Positions 1 to 61,969 of a stretch of DNA of 64,000 nt are shown here, piece by piece. Below the pieces are notes generated by a model. That model worked only from the letters and a program-made list of their open reading frames with translations, had not been told where the DNA came from and made no database searches. Location of the stretch: NCBI RefSeq assembly GCF_010681825.2, contig NZ_CP066776.1, positions 2,542,001 through 2,606,000 on the forward strand, given 5' to 3'. Numbering within the stretch: position 1 is the first letter of the stretch; the number at the start of each line of letters is the position of its first letter. The DNA comes from Sulfuriroseicoccus oceanibius (GTDB lineage: Bacteria; Verrucomicrobiota; Verrucomicrobiia; Verrucomicrobiales; SLCJ01). A program made the translations under genes and the position numbers.

Positions 1-1573
1 TCTTCCAGATGTCGAACAACTCGTCGATCACCAGGATGCCCATGCGGTCACAAAGTTCGAGGAACTCAGGAGCCGGTGGGTTGTGCGCGGTGCGGATCGA
101 ATTGCAGCCCATCTCTTGCAGGATCTCAATCTGACGCTCCATGCCGCGGGTGTGAACAGCCGCCCCAAGAGGCCCGAGATCGTGGTGCAGGCAGACGCCC
201 TTGAGCACGACCTTACGGCCATTGAGCAGGAAGCCCTTCTCGTTGTGCCACTCGATCTCACGGATACCAAACGTGGTGTCCTTGACGTCAATCACCTCGT
301 CCCCTTTGAGCAACGTGGTGCGCAAGGTGTAGAGGTTCGGCGACTCGATATCCCAGCGCTTCGGCTGCTTCACGGTCAGCGAGGTTGGAACCATCGCGGT
401 CTTGCCGGCTGGCACGTCGAGGCTGCTGACTTCGGTCGCTACGACTTGCTCACCGTCGAGCACTTCCGATCGCACTTCAAATGTACCAGAGGCCTCGGTC
501 GTGTTGTCGATGGTCGTTTCCACCGCCACAGTCGCTGCTTCATCGGTGATCTCAGGCGTCGTGACATACGTCCCCCAGTGCGCAATGTGCACCTCAGGGG
601 AAACGGTCAGCCAAACGTGGCGATAAATACCTGCGCCAGGATACCAGCGGGTGGATGCCGGCAGGTTCTGCAAGCGCACCGCCACAGTGTTCTTCTCACC
701 AACCTTCAAATGCGGCGTCGCGTCGATGCGGAACGAATTGTAGCCGTACGCCCACTCACCAGCGAACTCGCCATTGATGTAGACCTTCGGCTGCGCCATC
801 GCACCGTCAAAATCGAGGTAAACCTTCTTGCCCGCCATCGATGCAGGCACATCGAAGGTCTTGCGGTACCAACCGATACCTTCCCATGGCAGCTTGCCGG
901 TCTCGTTCTCAATGTCCATGTGGAATGGACCCTCAATCGCCCAATCGTGCGGCAGATTCAGCTCGCGCCACGACGAGTCATCGAACGCCACAGCGTCCGG
1001 CGCCAACTGCACATCGTCACCAGTAGCCGGCTCAGGCTTCACCACATTGCCGTCTTTGCCCAACACTTCGAGTTCACGGATACTCGCCCAGGCGGCCTGC
1101 TTGCCGTCGGCCACCACGCGTACATATCGAGCTGGAGTCGAGAAGCGCACGGTCTGCTCGGCGCCTTTGGCTTCCGCCTTGGGTACCACTTCCACCCATG
1201 TCTTTCCATCACGGGAAAGGTCGACTTTAAACGGATTGCCACTGTCTTTCTCCCACACAATGCGAACACCGGTCATCTCAACCTGACGCCCCATATCCAA
1301 CTGCAGCCACTGGTTGGCCAGTCCACTCGCAGCACACCAGCGTGTGTTAGTGTCGCCATCAATTGCGTGATCCACCGGGTTGTGGTTCTCGGCACTCGAT
1401 GCGGTAACCATCCCGGTCACAACACCTGGCTCGGGCACCCGCGTGCCATCCGCCATTTTGCCAAAACGGGCAAACTTCCAATCCAAGTCAAACGAGCTGC
1501 GCTCGGTTGGCTCAGCCGACGCGGCGGCACATAGCAATGCCCCGCTGGTTATCGTCATCAATAATTTGTTCAT
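1..1573 (-). CDS. GH2 beta-galactosidase with discoidin domain, N-terminal part (C-terminus beyond window)
   Basis: The minus frame stays open from an ATG at 1573 to the window edge, about 524 codons with no stop, so the gene is cut. The first 20 residues (MNKLLMTITSGALLCAAASA) look like a signal peptide. Residues 28-36 (FDLDWKFAR) and 197-212 (FDDSSWRELNLPHDWA) are the start of a GH2 sugar-binding jelly roll. Between them, at about 50-175, lies an F5/8 type C (discoidin) domain with HAIDGDTNTRWCA and ARYVRVVADG. Further on come the GH2 Ig-like domain and the start of the TIM barrel (GVCLHHDLGPLG, SIRTAHNPP, ILVIDELFDIW). The catalytic glutamates lie outside the window. It is probably an exported enzyme that splits beta-galactosides from polysaccharide; substrate unknown. 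The family is well supported, the exact specificity is not. Confidence 0.88.
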   Translation of the reverse strand, partial: MNKLLMTITSGALLCAAASAEPTERSSFDLDWKFARFGKMADGTRVPEPGVVTGMVTASSAENHNPVDHAIDGDTNTRWCAASGLANQWLQLDMGRQVEMTGVRIVWEKDSGNPFKVDLSRDGKTWVEVVPKAEAKGAEQTVRFSTPARYVRVVADGKQAAWASIRELEVLGKDGNVVKPEPATGDDVQLAPDAVAFDDSSWRELNLPHDWAIEGPFHMDIENETGKLPWEGIGWYRKTFDVPASMAGKKVYLDFDGAMAQPKVYINGEFAGEWAYGYNSFRIDATPHLKVGEKNTVAVRLQNLPASTRWYPGAGIYRHVWLTVSPEVHIAHWGTYVTTPEITDEAATVAVETTIDNTTEASGTFEVRSEVLDGEQVVATEVSSLDVPAGKTAMVPTSLTVKQPKRWDIESPNLYTLRTTLLKGDEVIDVKDTTFGIREIEWHNEKGFLLNGRKVVLKGVCLHHDLGPLGAAVHTRGMERQIEILQEMGCNSIRTAHNPPAPEFLELCDRMGILVIDELFDIWK

Positions 1574-14118: not shown

Positions 14119-14855
14119 ACACGCGCAAGACTCGGACCGGCACCCTGCGGCATTGAGGGAATCCGCAGATGACGCCGATTATGATGATTTTCGCGCAAGC
14201 ACCCTGGGAGCGGCGGATCTTACCCGGCCACCGCCACCGGAGCAAAGCGAGCACTTCCAAGGATTCTCACGCAGAGCCGCAAAGACGCAGAGGTGTCTTC
14301 TTCGGAGCAATGCTCGACGACCTCACCGCCGGTTGTGTCTTTTAGGTGACCCGCAGATTGTTATGATTTTGCGCAAGCGTGTTCGAGCCGTTGACCACAC
14401 TGTCGTCGATCACGCGACCTCTTCTTAGAACCATCACGCAGAGACGCCTGGGCGTATGCGGAGCTAGGCGCGAGGTCTGCACCGCTCGTGCTGGCTTGTG
14501 CTATTCTTCCCCACAGATGAGCAGGATTGGTGGGATTCTTACCCAAGCGTGGAGTGACGGTGTCCCCACCGTCGTCACCCCTCCAGCGCGCAGCGCGCAG
14601 ACCTCATTTCAAATTTCCAATTTCAGCTTCCCCATTTCGAGGAACTTCTCACGCAAAGCCCCGAGGATCCCAAACCTACTCCTCCCGAGCGCAGCGCGCT
14701 GACTTCCTTTGCGCCTTAGCGATAGCGTGGTCTCTGCGTGAGCCCCTAATCCCGTAAATCATGTCCATCCTGTCTAAAATGCCTCAGCCCTCCCGCGTGC
14801 TGAATGAATCTCAGCTTTCCCACGCCCTCTCGTCCCTCGATCACCTCCCAAACCA
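14119..14855 (+). repeat. Intergenic mosaic of modular repeats
   Basis: About 740 bases without a gene. Modules visible in order: 'CCGCAGATGACGCCGATT' with 'CGCGCAAGC' (14167), the GCCACC/AGCGAGCACTTCC tail (14230), 'TTCTCACGCAGAGCCGCAAA' (14265), a second 'CCGCAGATTGTTATGATTTT' (14351), 'CAAGCGTGGAGTGACGGTGT' with hairpin GACGGTG-TCCC-CACCGTC (14542-14570), the 'TTTCAAATTTCCAATTTCAG' phrase (14608), 'AGCGCAGCGCGCTGAC' (14688) and 'CATCCTGTCTAAAATGCC' (14765). The same words recur throughout the window. Confidence 0.85.
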
Positions 14856-28894: not shown

Positions 28895-29254
28895 TTATAC
28901 TTGCGTATTCTTAATCATCGTACTCATAATCGCGATGAGCTCATCGCCCTCGCCCTCTAGGTCACGTGCGGCAGCTACATCACCACCACACTCCTCTCTC
29001 AACAACTCGAGCCACAAGAGGGATTCATCTGCCTCCTGTAACGCCCCACCCAGCTTTGCAACGAACTCAGCATTGGATCTCGCGCGATTTGCTTCCCGCA
29101 CATGCGCTGCAACCGAGGTTCCCGCTCGAAGCAACTGCTTGCTGCATACTCGAACTTCTTCGCGCCCCTTCGAGAGCGCCACATAATAACGCATCTCCCG
29201 TTTGGCGAACCATTTGGTTCGAGCCAAAAAATCATCGGACAGCCGAGCACTCAT
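28895..29254 (-). CDS. Four-helix bundle protein (23S rRNA intervening-sequence type)
   Basis: 119 residues from ATG 29254 (MSARLSDDFLART). Motifs SKQLLRAGTSVAAHVREANRARSNAEFVAKLGGALQEADESLLWLELL are those of the four-helix bundle family originally found in 23S rRNA intervening sequences and related to Avd. A longer reading from GTG 29311 would translate an intergenic repeat phrase (repeated GGAAATG) and is not preferred. It sits between the exosortase gene and the second TPR gene. Function of these proteins outside rRNA is unknown; they often appear as hitchhikers. Confidence 0.85.
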   Translation of the reverse strand: MSARLSDDFLARTKWFAKREMRYYVALSKGREEVRVCSKQLLRAGTSVAAHVREANRARSNAEFVAKLGGALQEADESLLWLELLREECGGDVAAARDLEGEGDELIAIMSTMIKNTQV

Positions 29255-29307
29255 GCACTTCCCTTGCCCCCCCATCTCAGATTTCCCATTTCCCATTTCC
29301 CATTTCC

Positions 29308-30831
29308 TCACTCCGCCATTGCGCTGTGGCGTTTGGAGAGCGCCTCATCTCCAACCTTGGCATAAGCAGCCGCCAGCATTGAATGCAGCTCCTTCGGAAC
29401 CACGCTACGGTCTAGCGCCTTTTCCAAGTCGCCAATCACGACATCCCACTTCTCAAGTTCAAAGGCAAGACGCCCGCGCAAGTCATAAGCCTCACCCAAA
29501 AGCACCTCGGGATCCTTCGCCAAGCGTACCGATTGATCAGCCAGCTCATAGGCCATCTCCGACTCGCCACGCGCCCTAGCATTCCGAGCCAATGACAAAA
29601 GCATCACGGCATTGTGAGGATCCGCATCCGCGGCTTCCTCAAAAAACTTCATCGCATCCTCTAGCTCACCACGATCCTGCGCCCACTCCCCTAAAAAGCG
29701 CTGCACAGATGCAAAAACAGCATCCGACACTCCCTCAGCTTCCACGCTTTCAGCAAATGCCTCGGTGACCGCTGGACGTACTTCTGGATTCTCAGTCGCA
29801 AACTGGCCCATCACCTCAACCAAAGTCCCCTCGGTTGGCAAATAGCGAAGCGCCGCACAAAGGTGTCGCGCCGCCGCCTTCACATCCGGCTCTAAATCAT
29901 CGCCCACGCCCATCGCATCCAACGCTTTGGAGTACTCAAGAGCCATCATCATGCCGTCCCAAGCTTGATGAACGCCGGGATATCGACGCGTGTCATAGAA
30001 GTCCGTACGCATCTTCTGCAAAATCACTGCGCAGTTATCATACTTGCGCAGCATCAGTGCGGTTGCAGCATAGTCCAAACGTACATCCAGATCTCCCGGC
30101 TTCTGTAGTGTTTCGTTGCCTTGGATCGCAAACGAATGCCACCACTCCTGATACACCGGACCGTCTTCTGGCAGCATCCGGGCCACATGCACCAACGGAA
30201 TCATCACTCCGGCCTGAGGCGACTGCGGACGAGTCGCCGCCTCCATCAGTACCAACGCTGCCTCCCCCGTGCGCCCACGCGCCAGAGCGATCTCTGCCAT
30301 CCACAAGGCACCGGTCGCCTGCTTGGGCTCCAACGTATCAGCAGCACGAAAATGATCACGTGCTCGCTGAACCAACTCAGGTGCCATCGCCGCCAAATCA
30401 TTACTGCGGAATGTCGACAGTATTGGCGATTGCCTCACCAGCATCGAGCGGTCGGTCACCACCGCCGGGCGAACTAAGTCCAAACCCAACCACAAATGAG
30501 CCGGCACATGTCCCACCGGCTCCACTCCTTCTGCCCGCGGCGGTGCGATCTCACGCAAGATCAAGCGAGCTTCGTCCAACTTCTTCTCATCTACCAATGC
30601 CAGAGCCTCAACATACCGAGCCTCAACTGGCACATCCCCGATCTGAGTCCGAGGACCGCGCTTCTGATCCGCGATCGACTCCGCAAACGCATCGTAGTCC
30701 TTCTCCTTCTCACCGACATTTTGGGCTACGGTCACCATGCCATAGATCAATCCACCCACCACTGCCACGCCCACGCCCCAGCGCAGACCGGTCATCAGCT
30801 GTCGCTTCTTCTTATGTGATAACTTCGCCAT
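29308..30831 (-). CDS. Membrane-anchored TPR protein
   Basis: 507 residues. Basic N-terminus MAKLSHKKKRQLMTGLRW, one membrane helix (VGVAVVGGLIYGMVTVAQNV, about 19-38), then a soluble helical repeat domain: ALALVDEKKLDEARLILREI, ARDHFRAADTLEPKQATGAL, DAMKFFEEAADADPHNAVMLLSLARNARARG and WDVVIGDLEKALDRSVVPKELHSMLAAAYAKVG. TPR domains bind partners, so it may scaffold the EPS or exosortase machinery. It is upstream of the four-helix gene and the exosortase gene in the same direction. The resemblance in layout to the protein at 24436-26130 suggests that the two act in the same complex. Confidence 0.78.
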   Translation of the reverse strand: MAKLSHKKKRQLMTGLRWGVGVAVVGGLIYGMVTVAQNVGEKEKDYDAFAESIADQKRGPRTQIGDVPVEARYVEALALVDEKKLDEARLILREIAPPRAEGVEPVGHVPAHLWLGLDLVRPAVVTDRSMLVRQSPILSTFRSNDLAAMAPELVQRARDHFRAADTLEPKQATGALWMAEIALARGRTGEAALVLMEAATRPQSPQAGVMIPLVHVARMLPEDGPVYQEWWHSFAIQGNETLQKPGDLDVRLDYAATALMLRKYDNCAVILQKMRTDFYDTRRYPGVHQAWDGMMMALEYSKALDAMGVGDDLEPDVKAAARHLCAALRYLPTEGTLVEVMGQFATENPEVRPAVTEAFAESVEAEGVSDAVFASVQRFLGEWAQDRGELEDAMKFFEEAADADPHNAVMLLSLARNARARGESEMAYELADQSVRLAKDPEVLLGEAYDLRGRLAFELEKWDVVIGDLEKALDRSVVPKELHSMLAAAYAKVGDEALSKRHSAMAE

Positions 30832-32000
30832 GAATAATCAAAAATTGTCTCCGCAAGCCGGAGCGTGCGGAGAATTAGTGTGTTCCTCTCAAATTGACAA
30901 GCCTAAATCGGAGATCAGTGATTCAAGAGCCAAGACAGACGACGAGGGCGCTCTTGACTCACCACCTCCCCTAGTGGCTTCGAGTTATCCGCAGATTGCG
31001 CCGATTGTGATAATTTCTACGGAAGCACATTCGGACCGCCGGATTTCACCTGGCCACTGCCCCCCGGAGCGCAGCGACCACTCTCATTGGGTTCTCACGC
31101 AGAGTCGCAAAGACCCAGAGGCTTATCATGCGATGTCACCCGCGAGCACCTTACATGCCGTAGTCGCTTTCTTCTATCCGCAGATCTCGCAGATTGTGAT
31201 GATTGAACACAAGTGTGGAGTGACGGTGTCCTCACCGTCGCCGGTCCTCCCGCGCGCAGCGCCTAACTTCCTTTGGCGTCTTGGGGGCTTTGCGTGAGCC
31301 CACTCCCTCTTCCCTCCGTGCGCATCGCGCTGACGTCATTGCAGCTTTCCTAGCTCTTGAGCATGTGCTGCTGCGCCGGATCTCTAATGCAACCTCAAGA
31401 GTGAGGCTGCTCTACCCTCAATCGTTTTCGTAGCCTTTTGTGCTCATTGAGGACATCACCTCCGCGTCTCAGTATGAACCATCAATCACGTGAATCATGT
31501 CAATCCTGTCTAAAAACAGCGCGATCCGCAGATTTCGCAGATTGTTATAATTTCTACGCAAGCGTGGAGTGACGGTGTCCCCACAGTCGACAATCACACC
31601 GGAACGCAGCGAGCTCTAATTGGGGTTCTCACGCAAAGCCCCAAAGAGCCCAAAGCCCCCCTTCTCCAAACACCTTCGTGACCTCAGTGCCTTTTCGTGG
31701 TTCCAATCCCATGAATCATATCAACACTGTCTAAAAAACCTCTTCCCCCCCCGCGCGTAGCGCGCTGACTTCCTTTGCGTCTCAGCGTCTCTGCGTGAGC
31801 CCCTAATCCCGCAAATCCTGTCTAAGATAGAGTCATCCGCAGATTGCGCCGATTGTTATGATTTCTACGCAAGCGTGTTTGGACCAGCTCCCTGCAAAAC
31901 CTCTGCGTCTCTGCGTGAGCCTCCCTCCTCCTCCCGCGCGCAGCGCGCTGACCTCATTTCCAATTTCAGCTTTCAAATTTCCTCCCTCCTCTTCCCGTCC
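30832..32000 (+). repeat. Longest intergenic mosaic of modular repeats
   Basis: Nearly 1.2 kb with no gene. It has four 'CCGCAGATT' units (30991, 31180, 31527, 31840) followed by 'ACGCAAGCGTG'-like words, the CGGACCGCCGG hairpin (31026), hairpins GACGGTG/CACCGTC (31223, 31571), 'TTCTCACGCA(G/A)AG' (31094, 31629), three 'GCGCGCAGCGC' palindromes (31252, 31756, 31940), four 'CCTGTCTAA' ends and a hairpin AACCTCA-AGAG-TGAGGCT (31391-31408). The first 60 bases are the upstream region of the TPR gene. Confidence 0.88.
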
Positions 32001-33148: not shown

Positions 33149-33477
33149 TCACATCGTTTTGAGGTATTTGATGAGCCCTGCGGTGGTGTTCTTTACTTCG
33201 CCACACATCGCATAACAGCGGTCGAACACCTCGCGATCAACATACCCCAGATCCAGCGCCGCGTAGAGGTGACTCTGCACCTCACCAGCCGAGCGATAGC
33301 TGTATCGAAGAAAGCGAGCGAACTCGACATCGCTCCCCGAATCGAAGCCCTCCACAATGTTAGGCATTGTCGAGCCAGCCGCCCTGCGAATCTGATCAGC
33401 CAACGCCCAGTCCCTCGAAAACGGAGCCTCAGCGTTCTTGCTTTCTGCCAAGCAATGCAATCTTTGAACTTTTTCAT
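33149..33477 (-). pseudogene. Four-helix bundle (IVS type) gene, frameshifted
   Basis: The normal start MKKFKDCIAWQKAR is read from ATG 33477, but the rest of the family sequence (PFSRDWALADQIRRAAGSTMPNIVEGF, FARFLRYSYRSAGEVQSHLYAALDLGYVDREVFDRC) is in another frame, which itself opens at ATG 33460. Roughly ten codons usually between these parts are missing, so an out-of-frame deletion near 33430-33440 is inferred. It may still be made from the internal ATG as a 103-residue protein. It stands between two sugar-related genes. Confidence 0.7.
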
Positions 33478-34816: not shown

Positions 34817-36628
34817 TTAGTTCCCCCTGATCTTTCTGATTTCAAATCGACAATATGCCTCCGGTCCATCTGCGGGCAGTCGCACGACCAGTACCGATCG
34901 CTCTAACCCTGCGCCGAATGAGGGATGTGCCAAACAGTTCTCCACCTGGACATCCACATCGGCATTCCAAGAAAGCGCGTAGCTTCGTCCGTTGCTGCGA
35001 ATAACCGCAGCCCCATCAGCTACCTCCAATGACACGCCTGGAGCAAAACAAAGTCGGCTCACTAACCGAGCAGGTGAGACAAGACGCACGCGATCCTCGA
35101 TCACCAGTCCATCATTCTCCCACTCAATCCGGCGACGGTGAACCGCCTTGCAGGGTAAATGCACATATCCCCCGTGCTCCGCATCCAACACCATCGAATT
35201 CGCTCCCGGTATCCACTCGTTCACCCTCGGCTCTACCCGACGCCCGACACGAAACGCCCCCCAAACCTCACATGAGTTCTCACCTGCGACCTCGACCGTG
35301 CTATGCGCTGCAGTCGATCGATCAAACCGACGCATCTCACCAGCATCATAAGTTCCAACCCCCGTGTCCGTGATTATCCGCTGACCATCCAGACTCAGCT
35401 CGAAAGAAAGATAATCCGCATGGGCATGCCCCGGCTGGTAATCCGGACCGATCGCTCCTGCGTCTACCGCAAGATAATCCCCATCTACATTGCGGAAACC
35501 ATAGTACCCCGCATCTGGAAGTGCCCATGCCCCGATCTCCGGCGCATCCGACCAGCCATCGTTGTAAACCCCGCGCACCGCATCGTTGAATTGTGCAATC
35601 CCTCCATCAGGATGACGCATCATCCCCAGCGCCCCCCGCATCCGAGCTGCTAAATCACCTAAATCTGAACTACCTAAACTTAAACTTCTCTCTTCAACTG
35701 GCGACATCGTCGCCCCCAGCATCTCCACCAGCCACAACATCCGCAGATGGTACATCGCCGACCGTTCGTAATGCAGCCCGTCCGGCAGGATCTGCTCGGC
35801 CAATTCCCGCTCAAGCAACGGCATCACCCGCTTCAATGTGGCTCTCGCTTGCGTTCCCTCAAGCACAGAACCGACACATGCCAGAGCAGCCAGATTCTCC
35901 AACAAATGGTTCGCCTGGATATGTGTCTCCAGGTTCAGCTCCAACCACCGCACCTGCTTGGCAATCGATGCCATCACCGCATCGTGAAACTCACCATCCG
36001 CCACAAATTGCTCTCTATACCGAACACCGAATAGCAACGCCCAGTTCATCAACCGCAGCGACGTTGGATAAGGCTCCCACCCACAAGCCCCCTTCACCGG
36101 CGGATGCCTCTCGATCCAATCAAACACATACATCCGCACCACATCCCAGCAATCAATCTCAGCTTTCCGCTTTCCGCTTTCCGCTTTTTTCTGCCTTCCG
36201 CTCTCATCTTTCCCCCGCGCAGCCAGATCAATTTCAGCTTTCTGCTTTCCACTTTCAGCTTTCAAAAGACTCCACAGCCAATCGAAATACTGCAAGTTAT
36301 ACTGCCACAGACGCGGCAATCCCTCAGCAGTCCAGTCCACCGCACCGGTGAACGTGTGCCTTCGCCCGATGAACACAAACGTTCCACCGCCAAGATCGGC
36401 AGCCGACTGCGGAGGCACCGGATCACACAGATCCAACTCACCCAAACCCGCCCTCACCTGCCATCCCGTGCCATCCACCGACGCCAGGATCCTCTCAGGA
36501 TCGCGCAATCGGTTCTGCACCCGTACCCGCACCTGCCCCACAATCTGAGACAAGCGCAAATGCCGCAGGGTCCGCCCATAAAGAGTAGCCCTGCGGGCAG
36601 TTGAAGTGATTAGTTTAAGTTTAGACAT
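34817..36628 (-). CDS. Heparinase II/III-like protein with in-frame repeat insertions
   Basis: 603 residues. The N-terminal alpha-toroid (LWQYNLQYFDWLW, HLLENLAALACVGS, HYERSAMYHLRMLWLVEMLGA) and C-terminal beta-sheet domain (PGHAHADYLSFELSLDGQRIITDTGVGTYD, RFDRSTAAHSTVEV) are those of heparinase II/III-type enzymes often encoded in EPS loci. They cleave or modify uronic-acid polysaccharides. Residues ~122-156 (KAESGKQKAEIDLAARGKD and so on, 36160-36262) and ~313-326 (SLSLGSSDLGDL, 35645-35700) are encoded by the same words as the intergenic repeats, and the first codons too. No signal peptide is visible. Activity cannot be told; it is intact in frame. Confidence 0.85.
   Translation of the reverse strand: MSKLKLITSTARRATLYGRTLRHLRLSQIVGQVRVRVQNRLRDPERILASVDGTGWQVRAGLGELDLCDPVPPQSAADLGGGTFVFIGRRHTFTGAVDWTAEGLPRLWQYNLQYFDWLWSLLKAESGKQKAEIDLAARGKDESGRQKKAESGKRKAEIDCWDVVRMYVFDWIERHPPVKGACGWEPYPTSLRLMNWALLFGVRYREQFVADGEFHDAVMASIAKQVRWLELNLETHIQANHLLENLAALACVGSVLEGTQARATLKRVMPLLERELAEQILPDGLHYERSAMYHLRMLWLVEMLGATMSPVEERSLSLGSSDLGDLAARMRGALGMMRHPDGGIAQFNDAVRGVYNDGWSDAPEIGAWALPDAGYYGFRNVDGDYLAVDAGAIGPDYQPGHAHADYLSFELSLDGQRIITDTGVGTYDAGEMRRFDRSTAAHSTVEVAGENSCEVWGAFRVGRRVEPRVNEWIPGANSMVLDAEHGGYVHLPCKAVHRRRIEWENDGLVIEDRVRLVSPARLVSRLCFAPGVSLEVADGAAVIRSNGRSYALSWNADVDVQVENCLAHPSFGAGLERSVLVVRLPADGPEAYCRFEIRKIRGN
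35645..35700 (-). repeat. In-frame repeat-like segment inside the heparinase gene
   Basis: Contains TAAATCACCTAAATC and CTAAACTTAAACTT on the plus strand, the same words as the intergenic TTAAATCAC arrays and ACTTAAACTT strings. It reads as SLSLGSSDLGDLA in the protein without breaking the frame. Confidence 0.65.
36160..36262 (-). repeat. In-frame repeat-like segment inside the heparinase gene (KAESGK region)
   Basis: The plus strand repeats the phrase TCAGCTTTCCGCTTTCCGC and later TCAGCTTTCTGCTTTCC, the same 'AATTTCAGCTTTC' wording seen in intergenic mosaics (14608, 31950, 38724, 61440). It reads as a Lys/Glu-rich ESGKQKAEID/ESGKRKAEID direct duplication. Confidence 0.8.
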
Positions 36629-36648: not shown

Positions 36649-37008
36649 TCAGTGATCACGCGTCAGCGACTGCATCAATGCATGGAGCATCCGCGCAATC
36701 TGCCGCCCTTCCTCAAGCCAATCCCCGGCAACTTCTTGGTCAAAATAGCCAAGCTCCTGCCCGATCATGATCTGAGTTCGCAGCTCACCCAGCGAGCCCT
36801 TGGCGATCCCTATAAACTGAACGAACTCCTTTGGCCCGTTGCGTTCCGCCCCTTCGGCTAGATTAGAAGGAACGGACACCGCACTCCGAGTGATCTGATC
36901 GCGGAATCCCCAGTCCTTGCAGTGGGCAGCTGCTTTACAAACATCAACAGCCAACGCCATTGAACGCTGCCAAACCTCAAGCCCCTCAAACGACTCCGAA
37001 CTCCGCAT
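36649..37008 (-). CDS. Four-helix bundle protein (IVS type), intact
   Basis: 119 residues from ATG 37008 (MRSSESFEGLEVWQRSM). Motifs: WGFRDQITRSAVSVPSNLAEGAERNGPKEFVQFIGIAKGSLGELRTQIMIGQELGYFD. This is the canonical 'IAKGSLGELRTQ' four-helix bundle family. It lies between wecC and the heparinase gene, 20 bases before the latter's start, with repeats (TTAAACTTAAACT) next to it. Similar to the broken copy at 40017-40379. Function unknown. Confidence 0.92.
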   Translation of the reverse strand: MRSSESFEGLEVWQRSMALAVDVCKAAAHCKDWGFRDQITRSAVSVPSNLAEGAERNGPKEFVQFIGIAKGSLGELRTQIMIGQELGYFDQEVAGDWLEEGRQIARMLHALMQSLTRDH

Positions 37009-37048
37009 TACCAACCAACTCTTAAACTTAAACTACCCCACTTAAACA

Positions 37049-37073: not shown

Positions 37074-38310
37074 AAAACCCCCTCGTATCGATGATCATCC
37101 GCTCGGCAAGCACTGGCTTCGAAAGCGAGGCGAACGACTTGTGGTCAACCAGCAGTACCACGATATCCGCGGCCTTGATCGCGTCTTCCGCATCCATCAA
37201 CTCACACTTTCCTTCGAGTGCCTTTGGCAGCTCGGTGATATGCGGTTCGGCCACCAACACTCGGGCTCCCTCGATACCAGCCACCTGCTTGGTGATGTCC
37301 AAAGCAGGGCTTTCACGCAAGTCGTCGACATTCGCCTTGAACGCCAGCCCTAGGCAGGCGATGACCGGGTCTTTCAACCGATCCGCCTTGCGCTGAATCT
37401 GTGCCAACACATACTCAGGCTTGCTCTCATTGACTTCGCGCGCGGTCCGGATCAACCGTGCCCGCTCAGGCGCAGCATCCACGATGAACCACGGATCCAC
37501 TGCAATACAGTGACCGCCCACGCCTGGCCCGGGGTTGAGGATGTTCACCCGTGGGTGACGATTGGAAAGCTTGATCACCTCCCATACATCCATATCCAGC
37601 TCGTCGCAGACCATTGAAAGCTCGTTGGCGAATGCAATGTTCACATCGCGGAATGAGTTCTCGGTCAGCTTCGACATCTCGGCCGAACGTGCATCCGTAA
37701 GGAAGATCTCCGCCGTGCAGAAGCACTCGTAGAGTTCTTTTGCCTTTTGCGCCGCCTCTGGCGTCAAGCCACCGGAAATCCGGTCGTTGGTCACCAGTTC
37801 CTTCAGCATCTGACCCGGCAAAATGCGCTCAGGACAGTGCACAAAATGGTAGTCCTTCTCGTTGGCTTCGGTGTTGCCCTGCTTGACCAACTCATCGATC
37901 AACCAGTCGCGCACCTTCTCAGTCGTTCCCACCGGACTGGTCGACTCCAAAATCACCAAATCACCAGGCTTCACCACAGGAGCAATGCTGCGCGTCGCTG
38001 CCTCAACATACTTCAAGTCCGGCACACGACTCCCGTCCTCGCGCTCGTCAAACGGAGTCGGCACCGCAATGATAAACACATCGGCCACCGCAGGTGCCAC
38101 CGCAGCGGTCAGGTTCCCACTCTGCACCGCTGCCCGAACCAACAAATCAAGGTCCGGTTCTTCAATGTGAATACGGCCATCGTTGATGGTGTCCACCACA
38201 CTCTGCACAACATCCACCCCGAGAACCTTCTTCCCCTTGGTCGAAAAAATAGACGCCGTAGGCAATCCAATATACCCAAGGCCCAACACACAAATATCGT
38301 AATTATTCAT
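37066..38310 (-). CDS. wecC: UDP-N-acetyl-D-mannosamine dehydrogenase
   Basis: 414 residues from ATG 38310 (MNNYDICVLGLGYIGLPTASIF); a TTG at 38322 is less likely. It has the Rossmann GLGYIGLP, the UDP-sugar dehydrogenase block AVPTPF, LESTSPVGTTEKVRD, ERILPGQML with ENSFRDVNIAFANELS, and GPGVGGHCIAVDPWF with the conserved catalytic-lid cysteine. It oxidises UDP-ManNAc to UDP-ManNAcA in the cytoplasm with NAD, using product of WecB. A GDP-mannose or UDP-glucose 6-dehydrogenase role is less likely given the sequence and the adjacent wecB. Confidence 0.93.
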   Translation of the reverse strand: MNNYDICVLGLGYIGLPTASIFSTKGKKVLGVDVVQSVVDTINDGRIHIEEPDLDLLVRAAVQSGNLTAAVAPAVADVFIIAVPTPFDEREDGSRVPDLKYVEAATRSIAPVVKPGDLVILESTSPVGTTEKVRDWLIDELVKQGNTEANEKDYHFVHCPERILPGQMLKELVTNDRISGGLTPEAAQKAKELYECFCTAEIFLTDARSAEMSKLTENSFRDVNIAFANELSMVCDELDMDVWEVIKLSNRHPRVNILNPGPGVGGHCIAVDPWFIVDAAPERARLIRTAREVNESKPEYVLAQIQRKADRLKDPVIACLGLAFKANVDDLRESPALDITKQVAGIEGARVLVAEPHITELPKALEGKCELMDAEDAIKAADIVVLLVDHKSFASLSKPVLAERMIIDTRGFWK

Positions 38311-38741
38311 AGATTTTAACAAATTAGAGAACTGAAAGCGGAAAGGTGAAATCGATTTCCTCTCGCACGCTAGAACTGAAGTCTGGAAGTCCGGCTGTGC
38401 TTTCGTCTGGAAGCTTCCGCGCTCCGCGCGCTAACCTCATTTCAACTTTCCCTAGCAAAGCGACCACTTTCACGGATTCTCACGCGAAGGCCCAAAGACC
38501 CAAAGTTTCTTCATGCGATACCGCTCACAAGAACATCAACAACCTTAGTGGGTTCTGTGGGATCCGCAGATTTCGCAGATTGTTGTGATTTTTACGCAAG
38601 CGCTTCTCGCACCGCCGGATTCTACCCGGCCATCACTCCCTGAGCGTAGCGACCACTCCTCTTAAACTGAAACTCTCAACTTAAACTTGCCGCGTCAGCG
38701 CCCCCGCTCGCAGTGCGCACTATCATTTCTACTTTCCAATT
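38311..38741 (+). repeat. Intergenic mosaic of modular repeats between wecC and wecB
   Basis: Modules include 'GAACTGAAGTCTGGAAGTC', 'CCGCGCGCTAACCTC' (38410), 'TTCTCACGCGAAGGCCCAAA' (38475), 'CATGCGATACCGCTC', 'GATCCGCAGATTTCGCAGA' (38559), 'TTTTTACGCAAGCGC', 'ACCGCCGGATTCTACCCGG' (38612) and 'ACTTAAACTTGCC' (38678), then 'CAATTTCAGCTTTCAACTTT' (38733). The TTTCAGCTTTC phrase runs up to the end of the wecB gene. No gene seen. Confidence 0.85.
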
Positions 38742-39935
38742 TCAGCTTTCAACTTTTCCCAGCGAAGCTTCCAGCGTAGCGACAATCTTCCTCGCCGCCG
38801 TGCCATCCCCATACGGGTTCTTCAACGCACTGCGTCGTGCATACTCGTCCGCATCGTCGAGCAACACAGCCGCCTCGGACAAAATCTTGTCCGGATCGGT
38901 GCCGACCAATCGACAAGTGCCAGCCTCCACTCCTTCCGGGCGTTCGGTCGTCTCGCGCATCACCAAAACCGGCTTGCCCAAGGAGGGAGCTTCTTCCTGT
39001 ACCCCACCGGAGTCCGACAAAATAAACTTCGCCTGGTTCATCAACCACACAAAGTCCTCGTACCCCGCAGGCGAGCAAAGCTCTACCGCCGGGTTGTCTC
39101 CAAGAATCCGGTTTACCGGCTCCTGTACTTTCGGGTTCAAGTGCACAGGGTAAAGCACCCCCACACCCGGATGGCGCTTGGTCAGATCGTTGATGGCCTC
39201 GCACATCCGCTCAAACCCACCACCAAACGACTCGCGACGATGTCCAGTCACAAGGACGAAGTCGGAGACTTCGTCAGTTGAAATGGCTGATTTTAAGTTG
39301 AAGTATTTTTGTGCAAAGTCGTTGGAGATTCCGAGGCGCTTGGCCACGTCTGCAGCGTCTACTCCCGCACTTTCCTGCTTGTCGCGGATCCACAGAAGCG
39401 AATCGACCACTGTGTTGCCGGTCACGTAGCAATCGCACTCGGCAATGGCCTCGCGCACCAGGTTGTCTTTCGAGCCATCGGTCGGGCAGAAGTGCCACTT
39501 CGCAAGAGGCGAGGTCAGACGACGGTTCATCTCCTCAGGGAATGGTGAGCGCATGTTGCCCGTGCGCAACCCCGCTTCAATGTGCCCCACCGGCACATCC
39601 GCAAAGAACGCTGCCATTGCCGCCGCCAACACCGTACTGGTGTCTCCCTGGACCAGGATCGCATCCGGCTTTTGTTCATCGATGAACTTGGTCACCGCCT
39701 CGATCGCCCGGGCGGTCAACCCCGGCAAGGTCTGCCCCGGCTGCATCAATCCCAAATCAAAATCCGGCTTGAGGTCAAACGCCGCCAATGCCTGGTCCAA
39801 CATCTCCCGATGCTGCCCCGTCGACAACAGAACCGGCTCGAGTTCCTTGGACTCGCGTAACGCGAACACCACCGGCGCCATCTTGATCACCTCAGGCCGC
39901 GTACCTACTACTACTGCTACTTTTCTTCGATTCAT
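38742..39935 (-). CDS. wecB: UDP-N-acetylglucosamine 2-epimerase (non-hydrolysing)
   Basis: 397 residues. Motifs: VVVGTRPEVIKMAPV, LVQGDTSTVLAAAMAAF, VPVGHIEAGLRTGNMRSPFPEEMNR, VTGHRRESFGGG, YPVHLNPKVQEPVN, LSDSGGVQEEAPSLGKPVLVMRETTERPEGVEAGTCRLVG. The enzyme interconverts UDP-GlcNAc and UDP-ManNAc in the cytoplasm. It works with wecC, 430 bases downstream. A possible insert at FNLKSAISTDEVSD (near 39245-39300) resembles repeat words (ACTTCAACTTAAAATC) and includes a small palindrome GACGAAGTC/GACTTCGTC. Confidence 0.94.
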   Translation of the reverse strand: MNRRKVAVVVGTRPEVIKMAPVVFALRESKELEPVLLSTGQHREMLDQALAAFDLKPDFDLGLMQPGQTLPGLTARAIEAVTKFIDEQKPDAILVQGDTSTVLAAAMAAFFADVPVGHIEAGLRTGNMRSPFPEEMNRRLTSPLAKWHFCPTDGSKDNLVREAIAECDCYVTGNTVVDSLLWIRDKQESAGVDAADVAKRLGISNDFAQKYFNLKSAISTDEVSDFVLVTGHRRESFGGGFERMCEAINDLTKRHPGVGVLYPVHLNPKVQEPVNRILGDNPAVELCSPAGYEDFVWLMNQAKFILSDSGGVQEEAPSLGKPVLVMRETTERPEGVEAGTCRLVGTDPDKILSEAAVLLDDADEYARRSALKNPYGDGTAARKIVATLEASLGKVES

Positions 39936-40016: not shown

Positions 40017-40379
40017 TTAAGTTGAAGTGCCGCGGAGTGACTTGATGAGTCCGTGCAGCATTTTCGGAAGCTCCCTCGTTTCGGCAATCCAGTGATGGGC
40101 CACGTTCTCTTCAAAATAATGAAGTTCTAGGCCGATCGTGATTTGAGTCCGCAACTCAGCAAGCGACCCTTTGGCTAAACCCAAAAAGTGGATAAACTCC
40201 TTGGGGCCATTTCTCTCCGCTCCTTCCGCAATGTTGGACGGCACAGATACCGAGCTTCGCATGATTTGATCACGAAAGCCCCAGTCCTTACATGCAGAAC
40301 TAGCGCGGCAAACGGCAACAGCAATCGCCTTGGATCGCTGCTAAACGACCAAACCTTCAAAATCAGTGCTAGAACTCAT
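40017..40379 (-). pseudogene. Four-helix bundle (IVS type) gene with premature stop
   Basis: Reading from ATG 40379: MSSSTDFEGLVV, then TAG at 40341-40343 (codon 13) where the family has Trp (EVWQRS in the intact copy at 36649), then QRSKAIAVAVCRASSACKDWGFRDQIMRSSVSVPSNIAEGAERNGPKEFIHFLGLAKGSLAELRTQITIGLELHYFEENVA to the end in the same frame. An internal ATG at codon 40 (40262) could make an 81-residue fragment. The sequence is otherwise intact, so the nonsense change looks recent. Confidence 0.85.
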
Positions 40380-53749: not shown

Positions 53750-55101
53750 CCATCCGCACGGATAACAGATCCCGCGCAACACAGGCACTTCTCCCAGAAA
53801 ACTCTGGGAGAGCGAGATACGGATATCGGAAAGCAGTCAGCGCACTGCGCGCGGGAGGTGGAGTTTTAATCTCACGCAGAGACGCAAAGACGCAAAGGAA
53901 GTCAACGCGCTGCGCGCGGGAAGCAGTGGGAGGTTTTAGACATGATTGACGGGATTTAGAATCTGTGTCATCTGAGGATCACCCAAAAGCAACGAAAACG
54001 GGCAAGGATGGAGCAACCTCACTCTTGAGGTTGACCAGCCAATCCGGCGCAGCCGCACATGCTCAAGAAGCTGGAAAGCTGAAATGTAAAATTGGAAATC
54101 AGCCAGTGCGCTGCGCGCGGGAGGCGGAGGAAGGTTTTAGACAGGATTTACAGGGTGGACATGATTTAAAATCTGCGGAGTCTGCGGATAGCCCATCGCC
54201 ACAACGAGCGGTGACATCCCCACGCCTGGCTCCGCGCACGACACCTTGGCGTCTCCGCGCCTCTGCGTGAGAACCGACGACAGCGGGAACACCGTCACTC
54301 CACCCTTGCGCATAATCATCGTAATTCGAGTCATCCGCGGATCCCTCTATTCTTCAGACAAGATGGACATGATTCAACATCCGCGGAATCGGCGCAATCT
54401 GCGGATCCCCAAAAAGCCACTATGCTTGGTGATGTTCTCGCGAGCGGTATCGCATGAAGAAACTTTGGGAGCTTTGGGGCTCTGCGTGAGGTTCCTCAGA
54501 GGTGTTCGCGGAGGCTGCGATGGACTTGGCGACCTGGCACAATCCGGCGGTCTCATTCCTAGACAGGATTAGCAAGACGGACATGATTTGAGTAACTGAA
54601 CCACAGCAGACTCAGAGAACACAGGGACATCTTTGTGACTTCTTGTACCTTTTCGTGGCTATCAAATCCCCTTGGCATCTCCGCACCTCTGCGTGAGAAC
54701 GTAAAAATAGTGGTCGCTGCGCTTCTGGGCCAGTGGCCGGGTACAATCCGGCGATCCTAGCACGCTTCCGTTAAATCACCCCAGTCCGCCCAATCTGAGG
54801 TTCCCTCAAAGCCTCTACGGCTGGCAATGTTCTCAAGCGTGGCTCCGCACATGAGAGCTCTGCGTCTTTGCGTCTCTGCGTGAGGATCCATTCGCAGTGG
54901 TCGCTAAGCTCCAGGATTGGCGGCCGGGTACAATCCGGCGCACCGGGCACGCTTTCGTAAAAGCACAACAATCTGCTCAATCTGCGGATAACCCAAAGCC
55001 ACTGTGGTTGGTGATGCTCTCTCGCTCGGCACCGCACATGACACCTCTGCGTCTTAGCGATCGCGTGGTCTCTATGTGAGAACCCGCGAAATCTGCGGAC
55101 C
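53750..55101 (-). repeat. Intergenic mosaic of modular repeats, reversed orientation
   Basis: About 1.3 kb in which the modules read on the minus strand, unlike the other regions. On the plus strand: 'GCGCTGCGCGCGGGA' (53908, 54110; also 53840), 'TTTAGACATGATTGACGGGA' (53934), 'TTTAGACAGGATTTACAGGG' (54134), 'TCTGCGTGAGAAC' (54262, 54689), 'GGCCGGGTACAATCCGGCG' (54732, 54923), 'GACAAGATGGACATGATTC' (54357), and hairpin AACCTCA-CTCT-TGAGGTT (54015-54032). No coding gene is supported. Confidence 0.85.
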
Positions 55102-61063: not shown

Positions 61064-61969
61064 ATCTTAGACAAATCTAACTGAAATCACCGCCCGTTTT
61101 GAACGGCGAACACAGGGAAGCCAAGGTGCTACGGAAATCCCCCCACCAAAGCAACCCCAAATCGTCGTCAAACAACGAAAATTTAAAATCCTCCGATTTA
61201 TATGAAAATGCGCACCACTTCGTGTGTGCTGCAGCGCCCGCCATCACACATGCTCACGCAGAGGCGCAAAGACGCTGAGACCCACCATGGGGAGCCATGC
61301 GCGAGTACGTCACCGCACGTCGTGGCTTTGCGGGATCCGCAGATTGCGCTGATTGTTACGATTTTTGCGCAAGCGTGGAGTGACGGTGTACCCACCGTCG
61401 GCGGTCCCCCGCGCGCAGCGCGCTGACTTCGTTTCAAATTTCCAATTTCAGCTTTCCCATTTCGAAAAGTTCTCACGCAAAACCCCAAAGCACCCGAAGG
61501 TTTCCTATGCGGAGCGGAATATTGTCATCGGTGAGCATCCTCACGCAGAGACGCAAAAGCAGGACCTGATACCCAAACAACTTCGTGCTCTCCGCGCCCT
61601 TCGTGGTTTCACCGCGTCTAACGGCTCCTCTGTGTACTCTGCGATCTCTGTGGTTCAAACACTCAAACCATCTAAATCACGGACCAAGAAAGAGTGATCT
61701 GCCATAAGTGCGATTGAGCCGACGCCGCCACTCAACCTCAAGAGTGAGGTTGCTCCATCTCCGGCCGTTTTCGTGGCTTTTTGTGATCTGTGTGGCCATC
61801 ACTCCCGGCTACGCCTGCAATCGAAAGCAGTGATGCTCACTGCACTCCCAAATGGGCTGCGCCGCAGACGCATGAGCGAAATCCTGTCCAAAAACAATTC
61901 CTCCCTCGCGCGCAGCGCGCTGACTTCCTTTGCGTCTCTGCGTGAGTCCTAAATCCCCTCCCAATTTCA
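61064..61969 (+). repeat. Intergenic mosaic of modular repeats
   Basis: From 61250: 'CATGCTCACGCAGAGGCGCA' (61248), 'GATCCGCAGATTGCGCTGAT' (61334), 'GCAAGCGTGGAGTGACGGTG' with hairpin GACGGTGTACCCACCGTC (61381), 'GCGCGCAGCGCGCTGACTTC' (61411, 61908), 'TTTCAAATTTCCAATTTCAG' (61433), 'GTTCTCACGCAAAACCCCAA' (61469), 'CTCTGTGTACTCTGCGATCT', AACCTCA-AGAG-TGAGGTT hairpin (61734-61751) and 'TCCTGTCCAAAAACAA' (61870). The 5' part (61064-61200) is the upstream region of BY-kinase copy 2. No gene seen. Confidence 0.85.

Follow-up and report, generated by a model that had tools for sequence, protein, structure and literature searches.

Rickettsia palindromic elements (RPEs) are repeat DNA that lies in frame in unrelated metabolic genes and gives a recurring peptide, as summarized in PMC10969869, citing Ogata 2000 and 2002. 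The TAACTGA heptamers of Beggiatoaceae, cyanobacteria and Bacteroidetes are intergenic 7-nt direct repeats, often found just upstream of start codons and sometimes in ORFs (PMC4679880). Tandem repeats within the ORFs of Borg elements encode Lys/Glu-rich, probably disordered stretches (PMC9879509), and in the S23 intervening sequences of 23S rRNA the S23 gene is bounded by inverted repeats (PMC4990558).

We analysed a 64,000-nt stretch of the Sulfuriroseicoccus oceanibius chromosome (the window), in which a heparinase II/III-like gene contains two arrays of 7-nt words. Like the RPEs, this is an in-frame insertion in a protein gene, with a gap in the homologs and a peptide that recurs across metabolic genes; unlike the RPEs, which are palindromic families of about 150 bp, it consists of 7-nt word arrays with no palindrome or fixed sequence. 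It shares with the TAACTGA-type repeats the 7-nt direct unit and the dispersed, mainly intergenic copies, but the TAACTGA forward repeats bear stops and their in-ORF cases are mostly at protein ends, whereas the words described here are degenerate, stop-free, located inside conserved domains and variable by genome. The words here are GAAAGNN/GAAANNN and not TAACTGA itself. In contrast to the Borg in-ORF units, all of whose lengths are divisible by three, the unit here measures 7 nt; the array is also short and has relatives between genes. The insert also differs from an S23 element in having neither an S23 gene nor inverted arms. In the open literature we found no paper connecting S23 intervening-sequence proteins to tandem repeats and, for heptamers in coding sequence, only the works cited above, which is not proof of novelty.

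The insert and its host gene

The host protein has the Pfam domains PF07940 (E=1.8e-50) and PF16889. A preliminary description had reported an intergenic-type phrase in frame in this gene; the phrase is present and slightly larger than described, spanning 36152–36265 (residues 122–159). The features of the gene are as follows.

34817..36628, minus strand: gene that carries the insert and encodes the 603-aa heparinase II/III-like protein; an open, full-length ORF with residues conserved in homologs
36152..36265, minus strand: in-frame insert, residues 122–159, LKAESGKQKAEIDLAARGKDESGRQKKAESGKRKAEID; seen as a homolog gap and by lag-7 periodicity
36214..36265, minus strand: first part of the insert, GAAAGCT GAAAGTG GAAAGCA GAAAGCT GAAATTG plus a GC block; matches model positions 13–68 of the phrase-family profile
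36152..36187, minus strand: second array of the insert, GAAAGCG GAAAGCG GAAAGCT GAGATTG; direct repeat of 36227–36262
35657..35692, minus strand: tentative candidate for a second small in-frame phrase, AGTTTAAGTTTAGG..., SLSLGS; six residues more than the homolog L060 (gap)

The closest homolog found, L060 from an Akkermansiaceae MAG, aligns along the whole length of the protein and shows 50% identity across 548 aligned codons (best tblastn segment, 46%). The differences per codon position between the two genes are 0.42/0.33/0.63, which is the pattern of a gene under constraint. The insert is absent from all ten close homologs (L060, L005, L006 and L151–L157), in agreement with the gap that had been predicted over residues ~122–156. 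L060 has one clean 32-residue gap at the site, with the junction FDWLWSLL-PTAAPD-WETARDL against FDWLWSLL-KAESGK...EIDC-WDVVRMY in the host, and the net gain over this nearest homolog is about 32 residues. The other nine, from other genomes, are likewise without the insert residues; the same residues with synonymous changes in homologs from unrelated genera, which the preliminary description had named as the refuting outcome, were found in none of the ten.

The insert comprises two arrays of GAAAGNN words with a short GC-rich stretch between them, and includes a 36-nt direct repeat (36152–36187 and 36227–36262) that is 89% identical at 75-nt spacing. Its self-match is 0.56 at lag 7, compared with 0.24–0.35 at lags 3–6 and 8–13, and the 7-nt period is significant against codon shuffling (p = 5e-5, the lowest value that the test can give). 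The top-scoring 57-nt windows for this period in the gene are all inside the insert. Strong 7-nt period runs occur at seven places in the window as a whole, and both of the runs located within Pfam-supported genes belong to the insert. The GC content of the stretch is 0.48 against 0.56 for the whole gene, whose purine excess peaks here. The encoded peptide is hydrophilic and flanked by predicted helices in a low-confidence two-sequence structure model (mean pLDDT 47.6), as might be expected if protein-level selection had made a Lys/Glu-rich linker and the DNA repeat were incidental; however, the period is 7 nt rather than 3 or only 21.

The preliminary description had likened the insert to an RPE. 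The outcome is indeed the same, an in-frame repeat with a similar peptide in unrelated metabolic genes, but the structure is not: no inverted repeat of at least 12 nt was found in the 601 bp examined, the fold is unremarkable (z-score -0.56) and there is no fixed sequence of ~150 bp. A true element of the Rickettsia palindromic type is thus refuted on structure and hardly conceivable.

Dispersed phrases and neighbouring S23 genes

Counting of phrase copies relied on pattern searches and on sampled stretches of the genome. The exact sequence CTTTCNNCTTTCNNCTTTC occurs once in the 3.5-Mb genome, in the insert itself; degenerate relatives GAAAGNNGAAAGNNGAAATNG (at most two mismatches) number 41 against 9 for the reversed pattern, and nearly all of them lie between genes. 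They are concentrated at 2.556–2.623 Mb, around the insert, and at 1.86–1.94 Mb, and 400 kb sampled from places all around the chromosome contained essentially no copies outside such a cluster. The core of the family is GAAAGCTGAAATTGGAAATTTGAAATGAAGTCAGCGCGCTGCGCGCGG; only this degenerate core of ~55 nt matches, and the words vary among copies.

An nhmmer profile was trained on 23 dispersed, almost wholly intergenic copies with the insert left out. It recovered the insert at E=1.9e-5 (23.8 bits, a moderate match) over the array plus the GC block, and a profile built solely from the 1.86–1.94 Mb copies, 0.7 Mb away, matched it at E=0.0022. The second array (36186–36159) gave a weak match of E=0.065 that is not significant alone. 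The earlier statement that the insert is in the style of intergenic phrases therefore held as to relatedness and understated it, since a profile that had never seen the insert recognises it. The copies in the window that bear on the comparison are

38704..38764, minus strand: nearest full intergenic phrase copy, profile E=2.9e-11; a training copy
38334..38354, plus strand: intergenic phrase GAAAGCGGAAAGGTGAAATCG, close to the second array of the insert; 2.1 kb off, opposite orientation
31934..31989, minus strand: intergenic phrase copy, from the profile search
14586..14645, minus strand: phrase copy, intergenic or within a spurious short ORF, from the profile search
61409..61472, minus strand: the same, from the profile search
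54061..54120, plus strand: the same, from the profile search

Intergenic DNA at 38300–38780 of the window and at 1150–1680 of L003 is a mosaic of recurring phrases of the CGCAAAGACGCAGAG type, GATCCGCAGATTGCGCAGATTG and GACACCGTCACTCCACGC, together with heptamers.

Local replication slippage could have grown a native loop into heptamers with no import. Short tandem units are prone to slippage, which is able to make heptamers unaided, and the insert has its internal duplication at 75-nt spacing. Against this, the match to the dispersed family continues past the array into the GC block, and a heptamer seed, sought in the homolog loops at the insert site, was found in none.

The gene adjoining the heparinase-like gene upstream belongs to the S23 family:

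36649..37014, minus strand: PF05635 (S23, 23S-rRNA-intervening-sequence-type) gene, with inverted TAGTTTAAGTTTA arms at 36611–36623 and 37023–37035

In G022 (L006) the neighbours of this gene adjoin each other without an S23 gene. Further S23 genes in the window are at 33149–33460, 40020–40340 and 28898–29344, and others were noted at loci L020–L026 and L061–L089. Free-standing PF05635 genes are flanked by inverted arrays of 7–8 nt words that are alike within a locus and unlike between loci; 27 of 32 S23 loci reached an inverted-array score of 12.5 or more, a level attained by 4 of 254 ordinary genes and by 0 of 32 flanks taken 1 kb farther away. Those near the insert resemble the S23 sequences of 23S rRNA in architecture but are outside rRNA, and their arms are short word arrays. 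The candidate phrase at 35657–35692 has a word in common with the arms of the adjoining S23 gene and a lag-7 self-match of just 0.34.

The insert might be the relic of an S23 element, its inverted heptamer arms left after loss of the gene, and besides the S23 gene next door this would suit the inverted word arrays that bound six of seven S23 genes of the genome (judged by eye) and most in the relatives, as well as an insert with inverted arrays in a relative (see below). Both arrays of the heparinase insert, however, have the same orientation, no S23 remnant or reading frame lies between them, and most phrase copies are away from S23 genes, so that we regard such a relic as very unlikely. The link between S23 genes and coding inserts is suggestive only.

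In-frame arrays in enzymes of related genomes

Related genomes were searched for GAAAG heptamer arrays and the reading frames were then inspected; several arrays in long ORFs that proved to lie just 5' of a start codon, or whose ORF was spurious, were excluded from the count. A KAESGKRKAE-type peptide encoded by the same words was found in frame in aconitase, HisC, RibD, a DegT aminotransferase and a glycosyltransferase. In-frame invasion, which had been thought rare in free-living bacteria, is instead recurrent in several conserved enzymes of these relatives. In G023, of the same order and another family, a GT4 glycosyltransferase (L163, 302–1936, minus strand) has two in-frame phrase inserts, the first of 52 residues (RKAESGKRKGENEKLKAESEKRK...FQLSTFSSQLLP) and built of inverted GAAAG/CTTTC arrays, the second of ~57 residues; neither is present in full in three homologs that are 44–78% identical over the aligned segments. 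The G101 aconitase has SSKAESGKRKAEI at the position of a short turn in IRP1, and HisC, RibD and the DegT aminotransferase of relatives show similar insertions when compared with solved structures. Some net gains are small (RibD +4, aconitase +8) and fall in loops that are variable anyway, which counts against import at these sites. Arrays in PbpC (L195) and a DUF1549 protein (L183) occupy linkers between domains and carry less weight as evidence. A phrase match in the DAGK gene of G060 and G073 (L167, L168), where the gap is not clear, was set aside as probably due to chance.

Two genes, one for a ThuA protein (L035, ~1500–1560, minus strand, LLAFCFQLSAFA) and one in L187 (~1470–1560, plus strand, ALSTFAFLLSTFA), have an apparent signal-peptide hydrophobic core made from a CTTTCNN heptamer array, so that the opposite strand of a GAAAG-type array appears to be coding. 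In L099 (13325–14871), a 402-aa gene resembling an IS256-type transposase by eye lies within a (GGGAAGTC)n array of ~26 copies.

The aconitase loop was studied in 29 genes, from G101 and relatives (L210–L239). About 15 of the 29 genomes have an in-frame heptamer array at one homologous loop, the words being GAAAGCG, CAGAAGT, TCAACCA, TCAACTC or TTTGAAA; four have a short plain loop, and in one (L211) the loop holds a palindromic element, GGCGCAACTTTCCAAGTTGCGCC. The loops match themselves at 0.49 for lag 7 and 0.42 for lag 14, with ~0.25 at other lags, and lag 7 is significant (p<0.01) in 14 of 22 loops. When the word classes were placed on the tree of the remaining aconitase protein, 15 changes were required and there was no clustering, and sister aconitases with end branches of 0.035 bear different words; word turnover in this loop is therefore faster than the splitting of species. 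This turnover may proceed by fresh insertion, replacement or slippage. The idea of a genome "dialect", in which the loop word is among the commonest words of its own genome, was rejected at this sample size, the own genome ranking first in one of ten cases.

These loops bear on both explanations raised above. Their length is often constant at 19 residues while the words differ, a point in favour of slippage; the recurrence of the same word and peptide in unrelated enzymes of different genomes speaks against it, and we consider slippage alone unlikely. For selection on the protein, the loops of other aconitases have a loose residue pattern in common, but the words switch between sister species without phylogenetic signal and are plentiful between genes, which makes this origin highly improbable.

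Origin and tolerance of the inserts

Since 7 is not divisible by 3, successive copies of a 7-nt word are read in shifting phase, and the cycle of three frames is completed in 21 nt; a pure array therefore either has stop codons in every frame of the strand or has no stop at all. Such arrays are tolerated because their words are frame-blind in this sense, given a net length that is a multiple of three; a further condition is a loop able to accommodate them. According to the word table, both strands are open for GAAAGCG and GAAAGCA but only one for CAGAAGT and TCAACNN, and in the aconitase loops the latter two are found in their open orientation. The stop-free GAAAGCG and GAAAGCA words give a hydrophilic Lys/Glu/Ser/Gly loop (KAESGKR) in any phase.

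That a profile of dispersed copies matches the insert while the homologs lack its residues leads us to conclude, with a probability of roughly four in five, that an intergenic heptamer-array phrase was inserted in frame into the heparinase-like gene and kept as a tolerated loop. At the level of sequence comparison, the support for import consists of the intergenic relatives, the absence from homologs, the open frame and the recurrence elsewhere. A phrase from the intergenic family of this part of the chromosome would have been copied or inserted, with another phrase as the donor in an illegitimate recombination or template-switching event, probably at a turn between two helices of the N-terminal domain. 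Its retention would be due to a net length divisible by three and to words that contain no stop codon in the frame used; slippage may later have altered the number of units and the words, and the peptide presumably forms a flexible loop that is tolerated and performs no function itself. A broader proposal is that an active process writes or swaps arrays of 7–8 nt words, is tied to the mobility of the four-helix S23 genes bordered by like inverted arrays, and repeatedly rewrites, in frame, the loops of aconitase and other housekeeping enzymes, with word turnover outpacing speciation; this is speculative and unlikely.

In-frame phrase insertion turns non-coding repeats into protein, a route that is taken recurrently and has been little described. 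Free-living bacteria have taken non-coding repeat DNA into conserved and probably important enzymes on many independent occasions, and frame-blind seven-base words provide a simple rule for the tolerance of such inserts. With sister species bearing different words at a homologous site, the aconitase loop makes the origin and spread of the repeats directly testable. In-frame insertion of phrases also gives rise to new loops in proteins and, in two cases, to apparent signal peptides.
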